Source: Candidatus Thorarchaeota archaeon AB_25
Lineage (GTDB): Archaea; Asgardarchaeota; Thorarchaeia; Thorarchaeales; Thorarchaeaceae
Assembly (NCBI GenBank): GCA_001940705.1
Contig: MEHG01000002.1
Location: 1 to 64,000, forward strand
Reading direction: 5' to 3'
Length of the DNA stretch: 64,000 nucleotides
The notes below the pieces were generated by a model. It ran no database searches, was not told the DNA's origin, and saw only the letters and a list, made by a program, of their open reading frames with translations. Below, in pieces: positions 46,805-52,682 of this stretch (position 1 is its first letter; each line of letters begins with the position of its first letter). Made by a program: the position numbers and the translations under genes.

Positions 46805-47494
46805 ATGCAGAATATTTTCCAATTCATAACAGACATGATTAGTCAGGGGTATGTTGGTCTCTTCATCATCTGCTTTGCTATCAACATGATTCCATTTCTC
46901 AGTCCTAGTAATATGGTCCTTGCTGGAGCTGCAGTATTGACCTTCTCAATCTTAGGACCTGTTGGAATAACAGAGGCACTCCTCATAGGAATAATCGTGG
47001 CAATAACTGCCACACTTGCAAAGTTGATTCATTTCTATGTTGTCAGAGGGTCAAGAGTAGTTCTCTCTGAGGAGCGACTGAAATCTCTAGATTCAGAAAA
47101 GCAGCGTGTTGAGAAATGGGGGGCGCTTGCACTGTTCATTGCAGCAGCTTCACCAGTCCCAGATGATCCTTTGATAGTCTATGTTGGCCTCACGAAATAT
47201 AACACTGCTAAGTTCATAATCAGCTATTTCACAGGAAAAGTAGCTGTGACAATCGCTGGAGCAGTCATTGCTCTTTTCGGACTCACTTTGGGAGGAGGAT
47301 TCTTTGAGTCAATGCCTATTGTTGTAGCATCAATCGCCCTAACTGTTATTATTACAGGGATTCTATTCAAACGAAAGACTGAGGGACAAGAGTCTGATAT
47401 GCTCCAAGATATTCTTGAAGATGAGTTAATCCATGACGAAGAGTCTTTGAACACGAGAAATGATGATGAAAAAACCGATTCTGAGGATTATTGA
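46805..47494 (+). CDS. VTT/DedA-like membrane protein
   Basis: A 229-residue protein with about five hydrophobic helices. The segment ASPVPDDPLIVYVGLTKYNT and the following GKVAVTIAGA match the VTT (SNARE-associated, DedA) core with its re-entrant loop. Relatives flip lipids across membranes. The last 40 residues are acidic and soluble. Its start lies 36 bases after the upstream stop. Confidence 0.72.
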   Translation: MQNIFQFITDMISQGYVGLFIICFAINMIPFLSPSNMVLAGAAVLTFSILGPVGITEALLIGIIVAITATLAKLIHFYVVRGSRVVLSEERLKSLDSEKQRVEKWGALALFIAAASPVPDDPLIVYVGLTKYNTAKFIISYFTGKVAVTIAGAVIALFGLTLGGGFFESMPIVVASIALTVIITGILFKRKTEGQESDMLQDILEDELIHDEESLNTRNDDEKTDSEDY

Positions 47495-47543
47495 CTAGTA
47501 CGGAATTCTTAAGAGGCAACCAAAGAGATTCTATTTTGTTTAG

Positions 47544-47948
47544 GTGACAATTTTGACCAGTACAAGTCTAGCAGAAGTGAAATGCACAAAATGCAAGAAG
47601 GTCTATGAAACAGATGTAGTGGATCATATCGATTTGTCTGAAGACCGAGATTTGATCAATGCGTTGAAAACTGGCAAAGCAAATCGAGTTCAATGTCCTA
47701 AGTGCAAGAAAGTGATGTACTTGAATAGGAGCATCGTCGTGAACTTCGAACCTGAGAATAGAATTGTTGTCTTCGATCCAGCAGCCCGAACTAAAGCTGC
47801 TAAAGAGGATTTCATACAAGATTTTCATAGTGTCATTTCTTTCAATGAAACCCTCAGTGAGATTGGTGAGGAAACTGAATTCCTCGTCATTAGCAAAATT
47901 GACAAGCTTAAAACTATGCTTGACGACTATCTCAAAGCATACAAGTAG
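47544..47948 (+). CDS. CpXC-domain zinc protein
   Basis: A 134-residue protein from a GTG start. CTKC (14-17) and CPKC (51-54) bracket a strand-rich region with DRDLINALKTGKANRVQ, the pattern of the CpXC family. The C-terminal half is helical. Family function is unknown. The convergent ino1 gene ends four bases from its stop. Confidence 0.7.
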   Translation: MTILTSTSLAEVKCTKCKKVYETDVVDHIDLSEDRDLINALKTGKANRVQCPKCKKVMYLNRSIVVNFEPENRIVVFDPAARTKAAKEDFIQDFHSVISFNETLSEIGEETEFLVISKIDKLKTMLDDYLKAYK

Positions 47949-47952
47949 TTCC

Positions 47953-49029
47953 CTAGAGTCTTCGTTTTCCTAGAAGGAACTCCTCCACCCATCTCTCAGC
48001 TCTGTACATTGTTGTGGGTGTTGGAGGCATTTTGAAGCCATATGCTGAGATCGATTCCAGAGACCCACTAAGACCTCTCTTTAGAGCGAGCTTTGTTCCT
48101 CTGATTGTATCCATGAGAATTGGACCCGCATTTGGACCGTCTGTGACTTCCATTCTGATATCAATCTTGATTGGTGCACCGCCAAACTGGCGACCGTTTA
48201 TATAGAAGAATGAATCCCGGCTATTGTCCATAAAGGAAACGAAATCGCTTGATCCAGCAACGAGTGGTGCATCATATGGAAGATCTTGACTGATTGCCTC
48301 GCTCTTCACCCCTCTCTTCCTCATCCTTCCTCTGTAGTGGGAATCGAGCGACTCAGCCCCACCACCAATATCGAGCTGGTAGCTCTTGTCTACATGGACA
48401 CCTCTTGATACTAAGAGCTGGAGGATGCTGCGATGAAGTACTGTAGAGCCCAGCTGGTCTTGAATGTCATCTCCAACTAATGGAAGACCTTTCTCTTCGA
48501 ATTTCTTACTCCATTCAAGATCTGATGCAATAGGAATCGGGGCACCATTGATGAAAGCACAACCAGCTTCGAGAGCTACGTTCGCATAGTACTTGGTAGC
48601 TTCTTCTGCTGAACCGGGAATAAGGTTGATGAGGATCTCTGCTTTTGAATCCTTGAGAACTTTCACCACATCGGCATCTTTGACTGTTGAAACAGTGACA
48701 AGCGCTTTGAGCATGTCATCAACACCATCAAGTGCAGGTCCCTTCATTACTTCAACACCTGTCTTCGGAACGCTGGCAAAAGCCATCACGTTGTTTGGTT
48801 TGGCAAAAATGGCCTCTGAAAGATCAAAGCCTACCTTGGTGTTAGCAACATCAAAGGCTGCAACAAACTGGATGTCCTTGATGTGAAAACCTGCAAAGTC
48901 CGGATGTCCGAGCCCGATATTCTCACTATCTGCTCTGGCTTCTTTGTAGAATTCAACACCTTGCACAAGTGCGCTTGCGCAGTTGCCTACTCCAACAATA
49001 GCGACCTTTATTCCGTTCAAATATGTCAC
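47953..49029 (-). CDS. ino1: Myo-inositol-1-phosphate synthase
   Basis: A 358-residue archaeal-type enzyme. GVGNCASALVQG near the start binds NAD; SAEEATKYYANVALEAGCAFINGAPIP-type core (read in parts: LINLIPGS, AFINGAPIPIA, GDDIQDQLGSTVLH) and DIGGGAESLD mark the catalytic domain. It makes inositol phosphate from glucose 6-phosphate for archaeal inositol lipids or compatible solutes. A TATA-like element at 49062-49070 lies about 35 bases before the start. Confidence 0.93.
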   Translation of the reverse strand: MTYLNGIKVAIVGVGNCASALVQGVEFYKEARADSENIGLGHPDFAGFHIKDIQFVAAFDVANTKVGFDLSEAIFAKPNNVMAFASVPKTGVEVMKGPALDGVDDMLKALVTVSTVKDADVVKVLKDSKAEILINLIPGSAEEATKYYANVALEAGCAFINGAPIPIASDLEWSKKFEEKGLPLVGDDIQDQLGSTVLHRSILQLLVSRGVHVDKSYQLDIGGGAESLDSHYRGRMRKRGVKSEAISQDLPYDAPLVAGSSDFVSFMDNSRDSFFYINGRQFGGAPIKIDIRMEVTDGPNAGPILMDTIRGTKLALKRGLSGSLESISAYGFKMPPTPTTMYRAERWVEEFLLGKRRL

Positions 49030-49132
49030 CTCTGGCTCTATTCCTGCAAAATCCGGTGAATTTCTTATAAGTTATTCTATGAGTATAGAATAGTTGCATA
49101 CTCAGAACACTTATGTTGGTATGTTGCGTACA

Positions 49133-49394
49133 GTATGGTGGACGATTGGTCGGATGCCCCGTTGCTCCAAGCATCGTCGATAAGTCGTGGGAACGATGCG
49201 ACACATTTGTAATGGCGTATACGAATATCCTTCTGCAGGGAAATTCGGATCTCTCACCCCCGAGGGTTCAGAGAAGTGTCTTAGCAATGTGTGCACTGGA
49301 GCGCCACTCATGTTCAAAATAACAAAAGAGGGTGGACCTCGAGCCCGCAAAATCGGGCACCAAGTCTTAGGTGTCCACCATCGTCCACCTTTTC
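49133..49394 (+). ncRNA. Candidate structured RNA of about 260 nt, family unknown
   Basis: A fully nested set of helices: an outer 10-bp stem (49137-49146 with 49380-49389), a hairpin (49171-49177 with 49193-49199), a long-range stem (49201-49207 with 49286-49292) that encloses two hairpins (49222-49226/49243-49247 and 49250-49254/49270-49274), and a three-way junction (49331-49337 with 49373-49379). A TATA-like ACTTATGTT at 49109 and a TTTT run at 49390-49393 fit a plus-strand transcript. Ribonuclease P and SRP signatures were not found. The 536-base gap holds no convincing protein gene. Confidence 0.6.
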
Positions 49395-49565
49395 TGTGAT
49401 TTTCAAGGTTTAGCTAAGAGTTTAAAGGGAAATGTACTACCACGAAGGATAGCAGTGCCCTCAAACATTAGTTGAATCACAAGCTCCAGAGTTCCAGGCA
49501 CAGCTTTGCGATCCCTGAGGAAGATTCTACTTTTGAAGACCTGCAAATCAAAGACGTGAGAGATT

Positions 49566-50039
49566 ATGGGATATCAAGAGAGAGAGCCAATTGAGGCTCA
49601 GATTTCAGAACTGAAACCGAGAATGAAGAGTGTGAACATTTCGTTCAAGGTCATCGAAAAAGGCGAAGTCAGGGAAGTGACATCCAGAGCTGACGGAGAA
49701 CAGCACCGCGTATGCGACACAGTTGTTGGTGATAGCACTGGTCTTGTGACCGTCCCACTTTGGGATGCCGCGATTGATGAAGTCGTGGATGAAAAGACCT
49801 ATCGTCTTGAGAATGGTTATACTACTCTCTTCCAAGGACACCTCCGGCTCAACATAGGCCGATATGGCACGCTGAAGGAGGCCGAGGAAGCCATTGAAGA
49901 AGTCAACAATGAAGTTGATATGAGCGCCGAAGAGCACGAGCGCCGACCAAGATATGGTGGTGGCGGAGGCGGCCGAGGTGGCGGTAGAGACCGTCGTGGT
50001 GGCGGTGGTGGATACCGCGATAGGGACGGCGGCTACTAG
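49566..50039 (+). CDS. RPA/SSB-like OB-fold protein with RG-rich tail
   Basis: A 157-residue single-stranded-nucleic-acid-binding protein. An OB fold spans about residues 15-115 (ISELKPRMKSVN, FKVIEKGEVREVT, VTVPLWDAAIDEV), resembling archaeal SSB/RPA and human hSSB1. The last 35 residues are Gly/Arg-rich (RGG-like) and end in Gly-Gly-Tyr. A TATA-like element lies near 49418, so the leader would be over 100 bases. A TTG-started frame of 40 codons (49472-49594) overlaps the gene start; it may be a leader ORF or chance. Confidence 0.85.
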   Translation: MGYQEREPIEAQISELKPRMKSVNISFKVIEKGEVREVTSRADGEQHRVCDTVVGDSTGLVTVPLWDAAIDEVVDEKTYRLENGYTTLFQGHLRLNIGRYGTLKEAEEAIEEVNNEVDMSAEEHERRPRYGGGGGGRGGGRDRRGGGGGYRDRDGGY

Positions 50040-50069
50040 TTCAAATTCATAATCAATCAATTATGGCTG

Positions 50070-50108
50070 ACGCTACTTCGTGTAGCGTTTGCCCATCTTC
50101 TTTTTTCA
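50070..50108 (+). terminator. Terminator after the OB-fold gene
   Basis: ACGCTAC (50070-50076) pairs with GTAGCGT (50082-50088) around TTCGT, followed by a T-run at 50099-50108. It ends beside the convergent GlcF-like stop. Confidence 0.7.
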
Positions 50109-51266
50109 TTTCAGACTTTCAGCAAGCAAGTCTACAACATCAACGACACGAATCTTACTTTCAATCTGTTTCGCACCTGCCTCGAGATTATTTTCACAGA
50201 ATGGACAAGCAGTAGCGATTATTTCAGCATCAATTTCCATTGCACTCTTCACTCTATCTGCAGCCATCCTCTTAGACAATTCTGCATCATATGATCGGAG
50301 CCCTCCTCCAGCACCGCAGCACATCGCAGTGTTTCTGTTGGTCTCCATTTCCACGAGTTCAACACCTGGGATTGATCTAATTATCTCTCTCGGGTCATCA
50401 TAGACCCCGGCAGCCCTCGAAAGATGGCATGGATCATGGTATGTTACCTTTACTCCCTTACCCAGTGGTTTTAGCTTGAGTTTCTTTCCTTGGACAATCT
50501 CCTGAAGGGCTTCAGTTATATGAAGGATCTCTGGAAGTTCTAAACCGAGCTTTGGATAATCATTCCTGAGAGTCTTCAAACATCCTGCACATGTCACGAG
50601 TATCTTCTTGGCTCCCGAGTTTTTAATGACCTCTACAAACTTCTCAGCATTCTTCTGTGCATCTTCTACTCTTCCTGTGCGAAGCATGACGCTACCACAA
50701 CACGGCTCTTCTTCAAGTACTGCAAAATCAATGCCAGCTGCCTTGAGAATCTTAGCAGTGGACTTGGCTATGTTTGGCAGTCTCATACCTGCTGTGCAAC
50801 CAGTGTAGTAGAGCACCTCTCCAGTTGTTGGGACATCGAAACCGACCTCTTTGACCCAGTTCCGCTTGATCTTGTTATCTTCCTCGTATGGATTATCATA
50901 TTTCATGATTTTCTCTGCAATGGTGTCGTGAACGTCATTGGGAATATCATTTAGAACTGCTCTTACCTTCTCAAGGCACTCAGTCGGGTCGAACTCTGCT
51001 GCACAGATTTCAGTGCAATTCCCACAGAGTGTGCAGGTAAATAACGATTCAGCATTCTCTGGTGTTTTCTCAAGTGTGCCATCAAGCAGAGCTAGTGCCA
51101 CTTGAATTCTACCACGCATGAAACTGGTTTCAAAGCCGGAAGAGTTCCTCCAGACTGGACAGACTCCATCAAATCCTCTATCTTCGTACACAGCATTACG
51201 ACAGATGCCGCATCTGCGACATTGCATCAAGTTCTCAACGAGTTCATCAAGGTCTATCTCTATCAT
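50106..51266 (-). CDS. GlcF/HdrB-like Fe-S oxidoreductase subunit, copy 1
   Basis: A 386-residue protein. Two 4Fe-4S motifs (CRRCGICR..CP near 17 and CTLCGNCTEIC near 95) precede two CCG domains (TGCTAG, CCGSV, CAGC and HDPCHLS, CCGAGGG). This is the partner of the flavin subunit encoded just upstream, three bases away. Together they oxidise a 2-hydroxyacid such as lactate or glycolate and pass electrons on. It ends the minus-strand operon. Confidence 0.9.
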   Translation of the reverse strand: MIEIDLDELVENLMQCRRCGICRNAVYEDRGFDGVCPVWRNSSGFETSFMRGRIQVALALLDGTLEKTPENAESLFTCTLCGNCTEICAAEFDPTECLEKVRAVLNDIPNDVHDTIAEKIMKYDNPYEEDNKIKRNWVKEVGFDVPTTGEVLYYTGCTAGMRLPNIAKSTAKILKAAGIDFAVLEEEPCCGSVMLRTGRVEDAQKNAEKFVEVIKNSGAKKILVTCAGCLKTLRNDYPKLGLELPEILHITEALQEIVQGKKLKLKPLGKGVKVTYHDPCHLSRAAGVYDDPREIIRSIPGVELVEMETNRNTAMCCGAGGGLRSYDAELSKRMAADRVKSAMEIDAEIIATACPFCENNLEAGAKQIESKIRVVDVVDLLAESLK

Positions 51267-51269
51267 CCG

Positions 51270-52682
51270 TTAGATACCTCCTAGGACTCCTGGGTTCATT
51301 ATGTTACTCGGGTCGATGGTGTTTTTGAGTAGCTTGAGGAATGCCATATAGTCGTCCATGTCTTCAATCGCATCTTTCCAATACTCTGCAAGTTTGAATG
51401 GGACTGCGCCTGATCTGAACAATGTCTTCGCGATTTCTTTATGGGCTTCTACTACCTTTCTTTCCTCTTCTTTGTCTTGGGGGTCAAAGTAGAGATGAGG
51501 ATATAGGTTCATTGATGAATGTCCAGTATGAAATCCTGCGGTGTGGCCTAGGAATTTGTACTTGTCCATCGCTTCCATTATGATGTCCACTGACTTGTGT
51601 GAATTGGTTGGTGTCTGATGATGGTAAAGTGTTCTCCAGTGCCAACCGTGTAAGTATGAGGCGCGTACAAAATTCCAGAATCGACCTTCCCATTCCTGCT
51701 GTGGCATCTCTGGAACCTCCAACACCTTGCCTCCCAAGTCCTCACAAATCTCACGAGCAAGTTTGGCATCGCTCTCCACCATGTCCTCTCGTACTCTACC
51801 TATTGTCATTGATACAGTACGTCTTGAATGTTCAAAACTAGGAAAACCGAGTTCCTCAGACAGCATATCCATGAACAGGTCAAGAACTTCTCCCGAATAG
51901 ATCGAAGTAAAGAGACCATTGATATCATTCTGCTTTACCTCGACTAGGAACTTCTCTGCCTGTTGTTCGGTATCAAACCCATACATGTTGTAATTGAAGT
52001 ACTTCATTCGCTTGAATGTCTTCACCGATACCTTTGTGATAATTCCGAAACTTCCGAGTGACCCTATGAACAGACCTGTTAGATCCGGACCAAAGGCGTA
52101 ACGAATGAATGGTCCAGGAGCATTTGGATTGGCTTCTGAGCCGGTCTGGATGACTGTACCATCAGGTAGGACAATCTCAAGACCAAGAACCATCTCTGCA
52201 ATGCTACCATAGAGACTTGAACCAGGCCCAGCACCATTAACTGCAACATTACCTGCTACAGTACAAATCAAAGAAGACTCTGGATAGACCGGCAGAAAGA
52301 GGCCATGTTTTGTTAGGAATTTGTCTAACTCTCCATAAGTGACTCCAGCCCCTACCGTCACAGATCTGAGATCCTCGTAAAGCGTTATCCCCCCCAACCT
52401 CAATAAATCAACCACTATTCCACCAGGTTTTGGTATTGCCTCACCCTGAAGACTTGATCCTCCCGATCGGGGAGTCACTGGCACCTTGTACTTATTTGCT
52501 AGTTTTAGGATTTGAGAAACTTCATTGGCATTTGCTGGCCGAACGACAACAGCTGGAATGACTGGTTTGACTGCCATTGATGCGGTCTGCGAATATGTCA
52601 ACAAAACATCAGGTTTTGTTGATACAAATTCTGCTCCGACTATTTCTTCAAACCTCTTGACTATCTTCACATTCATTGCCAC
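51270..52682 (-). CDS. GlcD-like FAD-dependent 2-hydroxyacid oxidoreductase, copy 1
   Basis: A 470-residue flavoprotein. The PCMH FAD fold is seen in VTPRSGGSSLQG, VGAGVTYGEL, NVAVNGAGPGSSLYGS and GSLGSFGIITKV. The C-terminal domain includes HTGHSSMNLYPHLYFD and the closing NTIDPSNIMNPG. Sequence cannot distinguish glycolate, D-lactate or another 2-hydroxyacid. Fifth from the end of the seven-gene unit by layout, directly before the Fe-S subunit. Confidence 0.92.
   Translation of the reverse strand: MAMNVKIVKRFEEIVGAEFVSTKPDVLLTYSQTASMAVKPVIPAVVVRPANANEVSQILKLANKYKVPVTPRSGGSSLQGEAIPKPGGIVVDLLRLGGITLYEDLRSVTVGAGVTYGELDKFLTKHGLFLPVYPESSLICTVAGNVAVNGAGPGSSLYGSIAEMVLGLEIVLPDGTVIQTGSEANPNAPGPFIRYAFGPDLTGLFIGSLGSFGIITKVSVKTFKRMKYFNYNMYGFDTEQQAEKFLVEVKQNDINGLFTSIYSGEVLDLFMDMLSEELGFPSFEHSRRTVSMTIGRVREDMVESDAKLAREICEDLGGKVLEVPEMPQQEWEGRFWNFVRASYLHGWHWRTLYHHQTPTNSHKSVDIIMEAMDKYKFLGHTAGFHTGHSSMNLYPHLYFDPQDKEEERKVVEAHKEIAKTLFRSGAVPFKLAEYWKDAIEDMDDYMAFLKLLKNTIDPSNIMNPGVLGGI

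Follow-up and report, generated by a model that had tools for sequence, protein, structure and literature searches.

The stretch between a gene for an inositol-1-phosphate synthase and a gene for an Ssb-like OB-fold protein raises the question of whether it holds an RNA gene and, if so, of which kind. The locus belongs to contig C2 of genome G000, a Thorarchaeota metagenome-assembled genome that is the source of the window, i.e., the whole stretch of 64,000 nucleotides analyzed here. An earlier note had proposed a structured RNA of about 260 nt at this place, and both the stability of its fold and the covariation among its relatives now bear the proposal out: the locus is almost certainly a structured non-coding RNA gene. 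The covariance model matches 49136-49391 at 234 bits, and the RNA measures about 255-262 nt in the window genome and roughly 220-260 nt in the relatives.

The segment 49125-49400 has a folding energy of -103.6 kcal/mol, compared with -81.3 ± 5.5 kcal/mol for its dinucleotide shuffles (z = -4.1), none of the 200 shuffles being as good. Of the 60 consensus pairs available in the window sequence, 49 are recovered in this single-sequence fold. The perfect 10-bp outer stem described previously lies exactly where it had been placed, with GGTGGACGAT (49137-49146) pairing with ATCGTCCACC (49380-49389). Its conserved part is the helix P1, and the outermost GG/CC is not conserved. Among the relatives, P1 undergoes changes from A-U to G-C, from C-G to U-A, and from G-C to A-U.

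Table 1. Coordinates of the predicted RNA gene, its structural parts and the neighboring genes (window numbering).
Feature	Position	Strand	Basis or remark
Structured ncRNA gene, predicted transcript	49137..49395 (ends ± about 5 nt)	+	Covariance model, covariation, TATA spacing
TATA-like promoter box CTTATGTT	49110..49117	+	30 nt 5' of P1 GGA; about 27 nt before RNA start
P1 5' strand TGGACGA	49139..49145	+	Pairs with 49381-49387
P1 3' strand TCGTCCA	49381..49387	+	Pairs with 49139-49145
P2 5' strand GGTCGGATGCC	49148..49158	+	Pairs with 49370-49379; strong covariation
P2 3' strand GGTGTCCACC	49370..49379	+	Covariation
P3 5' strand GCTCC	49164..49168	+	Pairs with GGAGC 49298-49302
P3 3' strand GGAGC	49298..49302	+	Pairs with GCTCC 49164-49168
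P4 hairpin GCATCG...CGATGC	49171..49199	+	Double changes in 6/6 pairs
P5/P5b arm	49203..49291 (49203-49209/49285-49291; 49214-49217/49277-49280)	+	Double changes in 11/11 pairs
P6 hairpin CGAAT-A-TCC / GGA-A-ATTCG, conserved purine-purine mismatch	49222..49247	+	Covariation
P7 hairpin CTCTC-ACC / GGT-TCA-GAG.., conserved 3-nt bulge TCA	49251..49275	+	92.5-92.9% paired
Unpaired conserved motif TCATGTTCA, consensus TNAYGTTCA	49308..49316	+	Alignments
P8 hairpin GAGG-GTGGA-CCTC	49328..49340	+	94.4% paired
P9 hairpin GCCC...GGGC	49343..49358	+	Double changes in 4/4 pairs
Conserved unpaired ACCAAG, directly after P9	49359-49364	+	Alignments
Pyrimidine-rich 3' tail, presumed terminator	49390..49404	+	Tail composition in relatives
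Inositol-1-phosphate synthase gene	47953-49029	-	Pfam; divergent from RNA
Ssb-like OB-fold gene	49566-50039	+	Pfam; 3' of RNA

Homologues from the genus and from other members of the family were retrieved by DNA search, and the strand-corrected alignment comprises the conserved promoter region and the RNA. The consensus structure P1-P9 was written by hand from alignment A4, which consists of 17 sequences aligned by sequence alone. In A4, 89.5% of the cells are paired, compared with 36-46% when the partners are slid by 1-3 columns, and double changes occur in 24 of the 62 pairs versus 11.8 in shuffled alignments (0 of 500 shuffles reach 24). After a first covariance model (R1), a second one (R2) was rebuilt on 34 sequences, and a third (R3) was made from the 17 sequences of A4 without pairs. 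The 34-sequence alignment was fitted to the model and is hence biased towards it; in this alignment 90% of the cells pair, 50 of the 62 pairs show double changes (30.2 ± 2.3 shuffled, reached in 0 of 500 shuffles; 19-30 slid), the double-change cells number 264 versus 78 shuffled, and the covariation score is 0.382, compared with 0.169 shuffled and at most 0.083 slid. The earlier note had named stem-breaking mutations without compensation as evidence that would speak against the fold; the stems in the relatives are compensated and not broken. Because the 34-sequence alignment leans towards the model, a held-out test was also made, in which the paired model surpassed the sequence-only R3 by 23-48 bits in all 15 diverged homologues outside A4 (49.1 vs 19.8 bits for locus L094, 63.6 vs 32.0 for L056, 84.1 vs 37.9 for L051, and 76.3 vs 53.3 for L092). 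When all column pairs were scanned, 8 of the top 10 were pairs of the model; one of the others adjoins P6, and one is unrelated. No clear additional helix that could form a pseudoknot appeared in the covariation scan, only one pair that extends P6.

Both strands of the window sequence fold far better than shuffles (z of -4.1 on the plus strand and -4.4 on the minus strand), so that a single sequence does not reveal the direction of the gene. The relatives do: G.U outnumbers A.C in the paired columns (156 vs 61), indicating that the plus strand is the RNA, and in 30 of 33 homologues this strand has the more extreme z-score. The TATA-like element that had been noticed upstream recurs with the same spacing, since a YTTA[TA] box lies 29-31 nt 5' of the first GG of P1 (GGA) in all 32 homologues checked. 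The distance between TATA box and start is well established in archaea, and together with the position of the box it places the start of the RNA at about 49137, just outside P1. At the 3' end, the T-run described in the earlier note is present here as TTTT (49390-49393), but the relatives carry a pyrimidine-rich tail (on average 10.3 T in 23 nt) instead of a strict T-run.

The stems vary among the relatives yet stay paired, whereas the P8 loop GTGGA, the P7 bulge TCA, the ACCAAG segment, and the TNAYGTTCA motif located between P3 and P8 are nearly invariant. P3 is paired in 98% of the cells with an almost invariant sequence, and P6 in 98.9%, with double changes in 7 of its 8 pairs. P6 and P7 branch from the P5/P5b arm at a three-way junction. 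In the alignment, P7 is missing from genome G016, and the GTGGA loop is altered in genus g5 and in genome G040. The loss of P7 in G016 and the altered loop in g5 indicate that not every motif is essential. A pairing of the P8 loop region GGTGGAC with GTCCACC at the 3' end, chosen by RNAalifold on A4, was rejected because five loci (L047, L049, L050, L065, and L066) carry CGTCCCC or CGTCCTC there and still keep the GTGGA loop.

In diverged members of the family, R1 located the RNA 5' of the inositol-phosphate synthase gene, also by whole-genome search. The search of Asgard genomes with a covariance model, recommended in the earlier note, was run with R2 on 227 genomes of the phylum (47 of the family of the window and 180 others, E up to 0.01). 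The RNA was found in 33 of the 47 family genomes, as a single copy in each, and in none of the 180 genomes outside the family; among the 22 family genomes with a completeness of 90% or more, 21 have it. Weak matches outside the family (15 bits in G057 with R1; others of at most 13.7 bits with R2) were judged to be due to chance, and a more permissive model search of 28 genomes yielded only matches of at most 14.3 bits. No phage or viral homologues were found. Seven family genomes (G001, G002, G004, G005, G017, G020, and G047) contain neither the RNA nor the orthologous synthase gene, and thus the region is probably missing from their assemblies; in G014, a fragment of the RNA lies at a contig edge. 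Genome G023 (93% complete, genus g9) truly lacks the RNA at the usual site, where about 125 bases separate the flanking genes, and no convincing copy was detected elsewhere in that genome (best match 14 bits). With its flanking genes almost touching, G023 shows that the RNA is not indispensable in that genus. The empty site corresponds to locus L119 (G023:C6), 1903-2029.

We consider that the RNA is most probably a stand-alone, constitutive ribonucleoprotein RNA with a housekeeping-type role special to the lineage and with its stems serving as a scaffold; we give this reading a probability of roughly 55%. An archaeal promoter of its own and a pyrimidine-rich end would delimit a single-copy RNA gene. 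In the predicted structure, P1 would join the extreme 5' and 3' ends, P2, P3, P8, and P9 would make a central multi-branch junction, and the P3 arm would bear P4 and the P5 arm, the latter forking into P6 and P7. The stems may present the near-invariant unpaired pieces to one or more proteins, and the resulting ribonucleoprotein would be constitutive. The variable stems, the invariant joining segments, and both ends locked in P1 point to a scaffold on which elements for binding or for an active site are displayed. Transcription, protein binding, and a housekeeping role are what we infer for this RNA. Its confinement to one family is unusual for a housekeeping RNA and counts against the ribonucleoprotein reading. 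To our knowledge, large single-copy multi-branched RNAs kept by nearly all members of a lineage are rare. The best known RNAs of this type, RNase P RNA, SRP RNA, and tmRNA, belong to the core machinery of the cell. The chances are about even that we are dealing with an undescribed large multi-branched RNA of the RNase P size class that is at the heart of a ribonucleoprotein or ribozyme confined to Thorarchaeota. If this is true, a lineage near the ancestry of eukaryotes would possess a new RNA machine. The RNA, with its predicted ends, strand, promoter, and covariance model, is a defined and testable Asgard object, and Asgard genomes contain structured RNAs absent from Rfam.

Several known RNA classes were compared with the new family. 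Neither in the window nor in eight loci that contain diverged homologues does any Rfam family reach its gathering threshold, in accordance with the proposal that the RNA was undescribed; permissive E-values gave only chance-level matches, and no tRNA was found in the window. Box C (RTGATGA) of C/D guides occurs in none of 33 homologues. As to H/ACA guides, there is no Rfam match and, comparing contiguous stretches, no rRNA complementarity common to the genomes. In four family genomes, the SSU and LSU rRNA loci contain no complementary stretch within the rRNA that is common to the genomes, and the longest complementarity, 17 nt in G018, falls in a protein gene beside the SSU gene. Y RNAs are likewise stand-alone RNAs with closed ends and form a ribonucleoprotein with Ro60, but no Ro60 (TROVE) protein was detected in the 25 family genomes searched. 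The large structured RNAs OLE, GOLLD, and ROOL, discovered through covariation, resemble the present RNA in being stand-alone, ornate, and restricted to certain lineages. They are larger and come from bacteria or phages, whereas the RNA described here has 220-260 nt, is archaeal, has a fixed chromosomal neighborhood, and is unmatched in Rfam. OLE, GOLLD, and ROOL have been studied by cryo-EM (PMC12286853). Structured non-coding RNAs are known as a broad kind, but this family differs in architecture and distribution from all RNA classes tested; a covarying secondary structure, a lack of coding, and a promoter box of its own, as found here, mark a self-standing structured non-coding RNA. No description was found in the literature searched, the coverage of which was partial, so that an account elsewhere is possible.

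Among the other explanations, the one that invokes chance folding or protein coding could appeal to the open frames present on both strands, with ORFs of 69-79 aa overlapping the RNA. Only 9 of the 132 indels relative to the window genome are multiples of three, and the 123 frame-breaking ones, together with the lack of a Pfam match for two overlapping ORFs, show that this is not a protein gene; the covariation, far above shuffled and slid controls, rules out chance, and this explanation can be regarded as refuted. It is also highly improbable that the RNA is a diverged RNase P RNA, SRP RNA, or other known archaeal RNA. It shares with archaeal RNase P RNA (RF00373) the size class, the single copy, the ends paired in P1, the multi-branched shape, and a TATA-type promoter of similar look in the family genomes, and with archaeal SRP RNA (RF01857; about 300 nt) the paired ends and the stand-alone gene. 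However, the same genome has its true RNase P RNA gene (G000:C173, above cut-off) and its SRP RNA gene (G000:C114, E 1.5e-18) at other places, and neither of the two archaeal covariance models matches the window, as the absence of their signatures reported in the earlier note had anticipated. Four RNase P loci searched with the model of the new RNA gave no match at E values up to 10, and of the 33 homologues only 2 contain the RNase P P4 core motif GGAAAGTCC with one mismatch and 9 a bare ACARAA. SRP RNA is moreover a long rod with helix 8, unlike this multi-branched RNA. Within the reach of sequence and covariance models, the reading as a diverged known RNA is refuted. The gene order bears on a further, very improbable explanation, namely that the RNA is a leader controlling the OB-fold gene at 49566 or an element controlling the divergent synthase gene. 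In the window genome and in several relatives, the RNA is followed by the OB-fold gene in the same orientation, and the synthase gene is divergent and adjoining in most loci. Nevertheless, the RNA is retained where the next gene lies on the opposite strand (G008, G009, and G013) or where the OB-fold gene is missing (G018), and in two cases (loci L091 and L092; genomes G041 and G044) the synthase gene does not adjoin it. These arrangements, which largely refute the leader reading, indicate that the RNA stands alone.

A trans-acting regulatory RNA that base-pairs with mRNAs through conserved unpaired segments such as TNAYGTTCA is an unlikely but more serious candidate. The motif is short, conserved, and unpaired, with a length comparable to that of an sRNA seed, its complement TGAACRTNA contains ATG or GTG, and the gene is a stand-alone unit with its own promoter box. 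The selection acting on the whole 250-nt architecture goes far beyond the needs of a seed, though, conserved joining segments between variable stems typify RNAs that bind proteins or ligands, and no conserved target was found in the rRNA loci of the four family genomes. More doubtful still is a ribozyme or a small-molecule-binding RNA, the conserved junction segments of which would be the active site or pocket: the several junctions and the nearly invariant unpaired positions would suit it, but neither ribozymes nor riboswitches of Rfam match, and the RNA does not occupy the constant position 5' of a regulated gene expected of a riboswitch or cis-leader. The ribonucleoprotein reading is the one that we prefer.

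Some further observations concern the surroundings. Beyond the OB-fold gene lie a gene of the heterodisulfide-reductase type (CCG/Fer4) and an FAD-oxidase gene (Pfam). Within 46805-52682, the order VTT-domain membrane protein, CpXC protein, inositol-phosphate synthase, and CCG/Fer4 protein is kept across much of the family. A palindrome, ATTCTATNNNNATAGAAT, adjoins the TATA box of the synthase gene at 49074-49091 (ATTCTATGAGTATAGAAT) and 49064-49071 (CTTATAAG). It is kept within the genus and degenerate farther out, and it is also found 5' of a second synthase paralogue in G009 (L117:1204) and G013 (L118:2065) and 5' of a membrane-protein gene in G006 (L116:2025). This palindrome is probably the operator of an inositol-related regulon. 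A link between the RNA and this ATTCTAT palindrome was considered and dropped, the element being part of inositol-phosphate synthase promoters; it is retained in G023, the genome without the RNA, which also argues against the RNA as an element controlling the synthase. Among the rRNA genes, the SSU match of G022 (G022:C2:589938-592348, L131) spans 2411 bases for 1478 model positions, suggesting that about 0.9 kb of this gene is an intron or insertion, and the LSU rRNA matches of G018 and G019 also exceed the length of the model.
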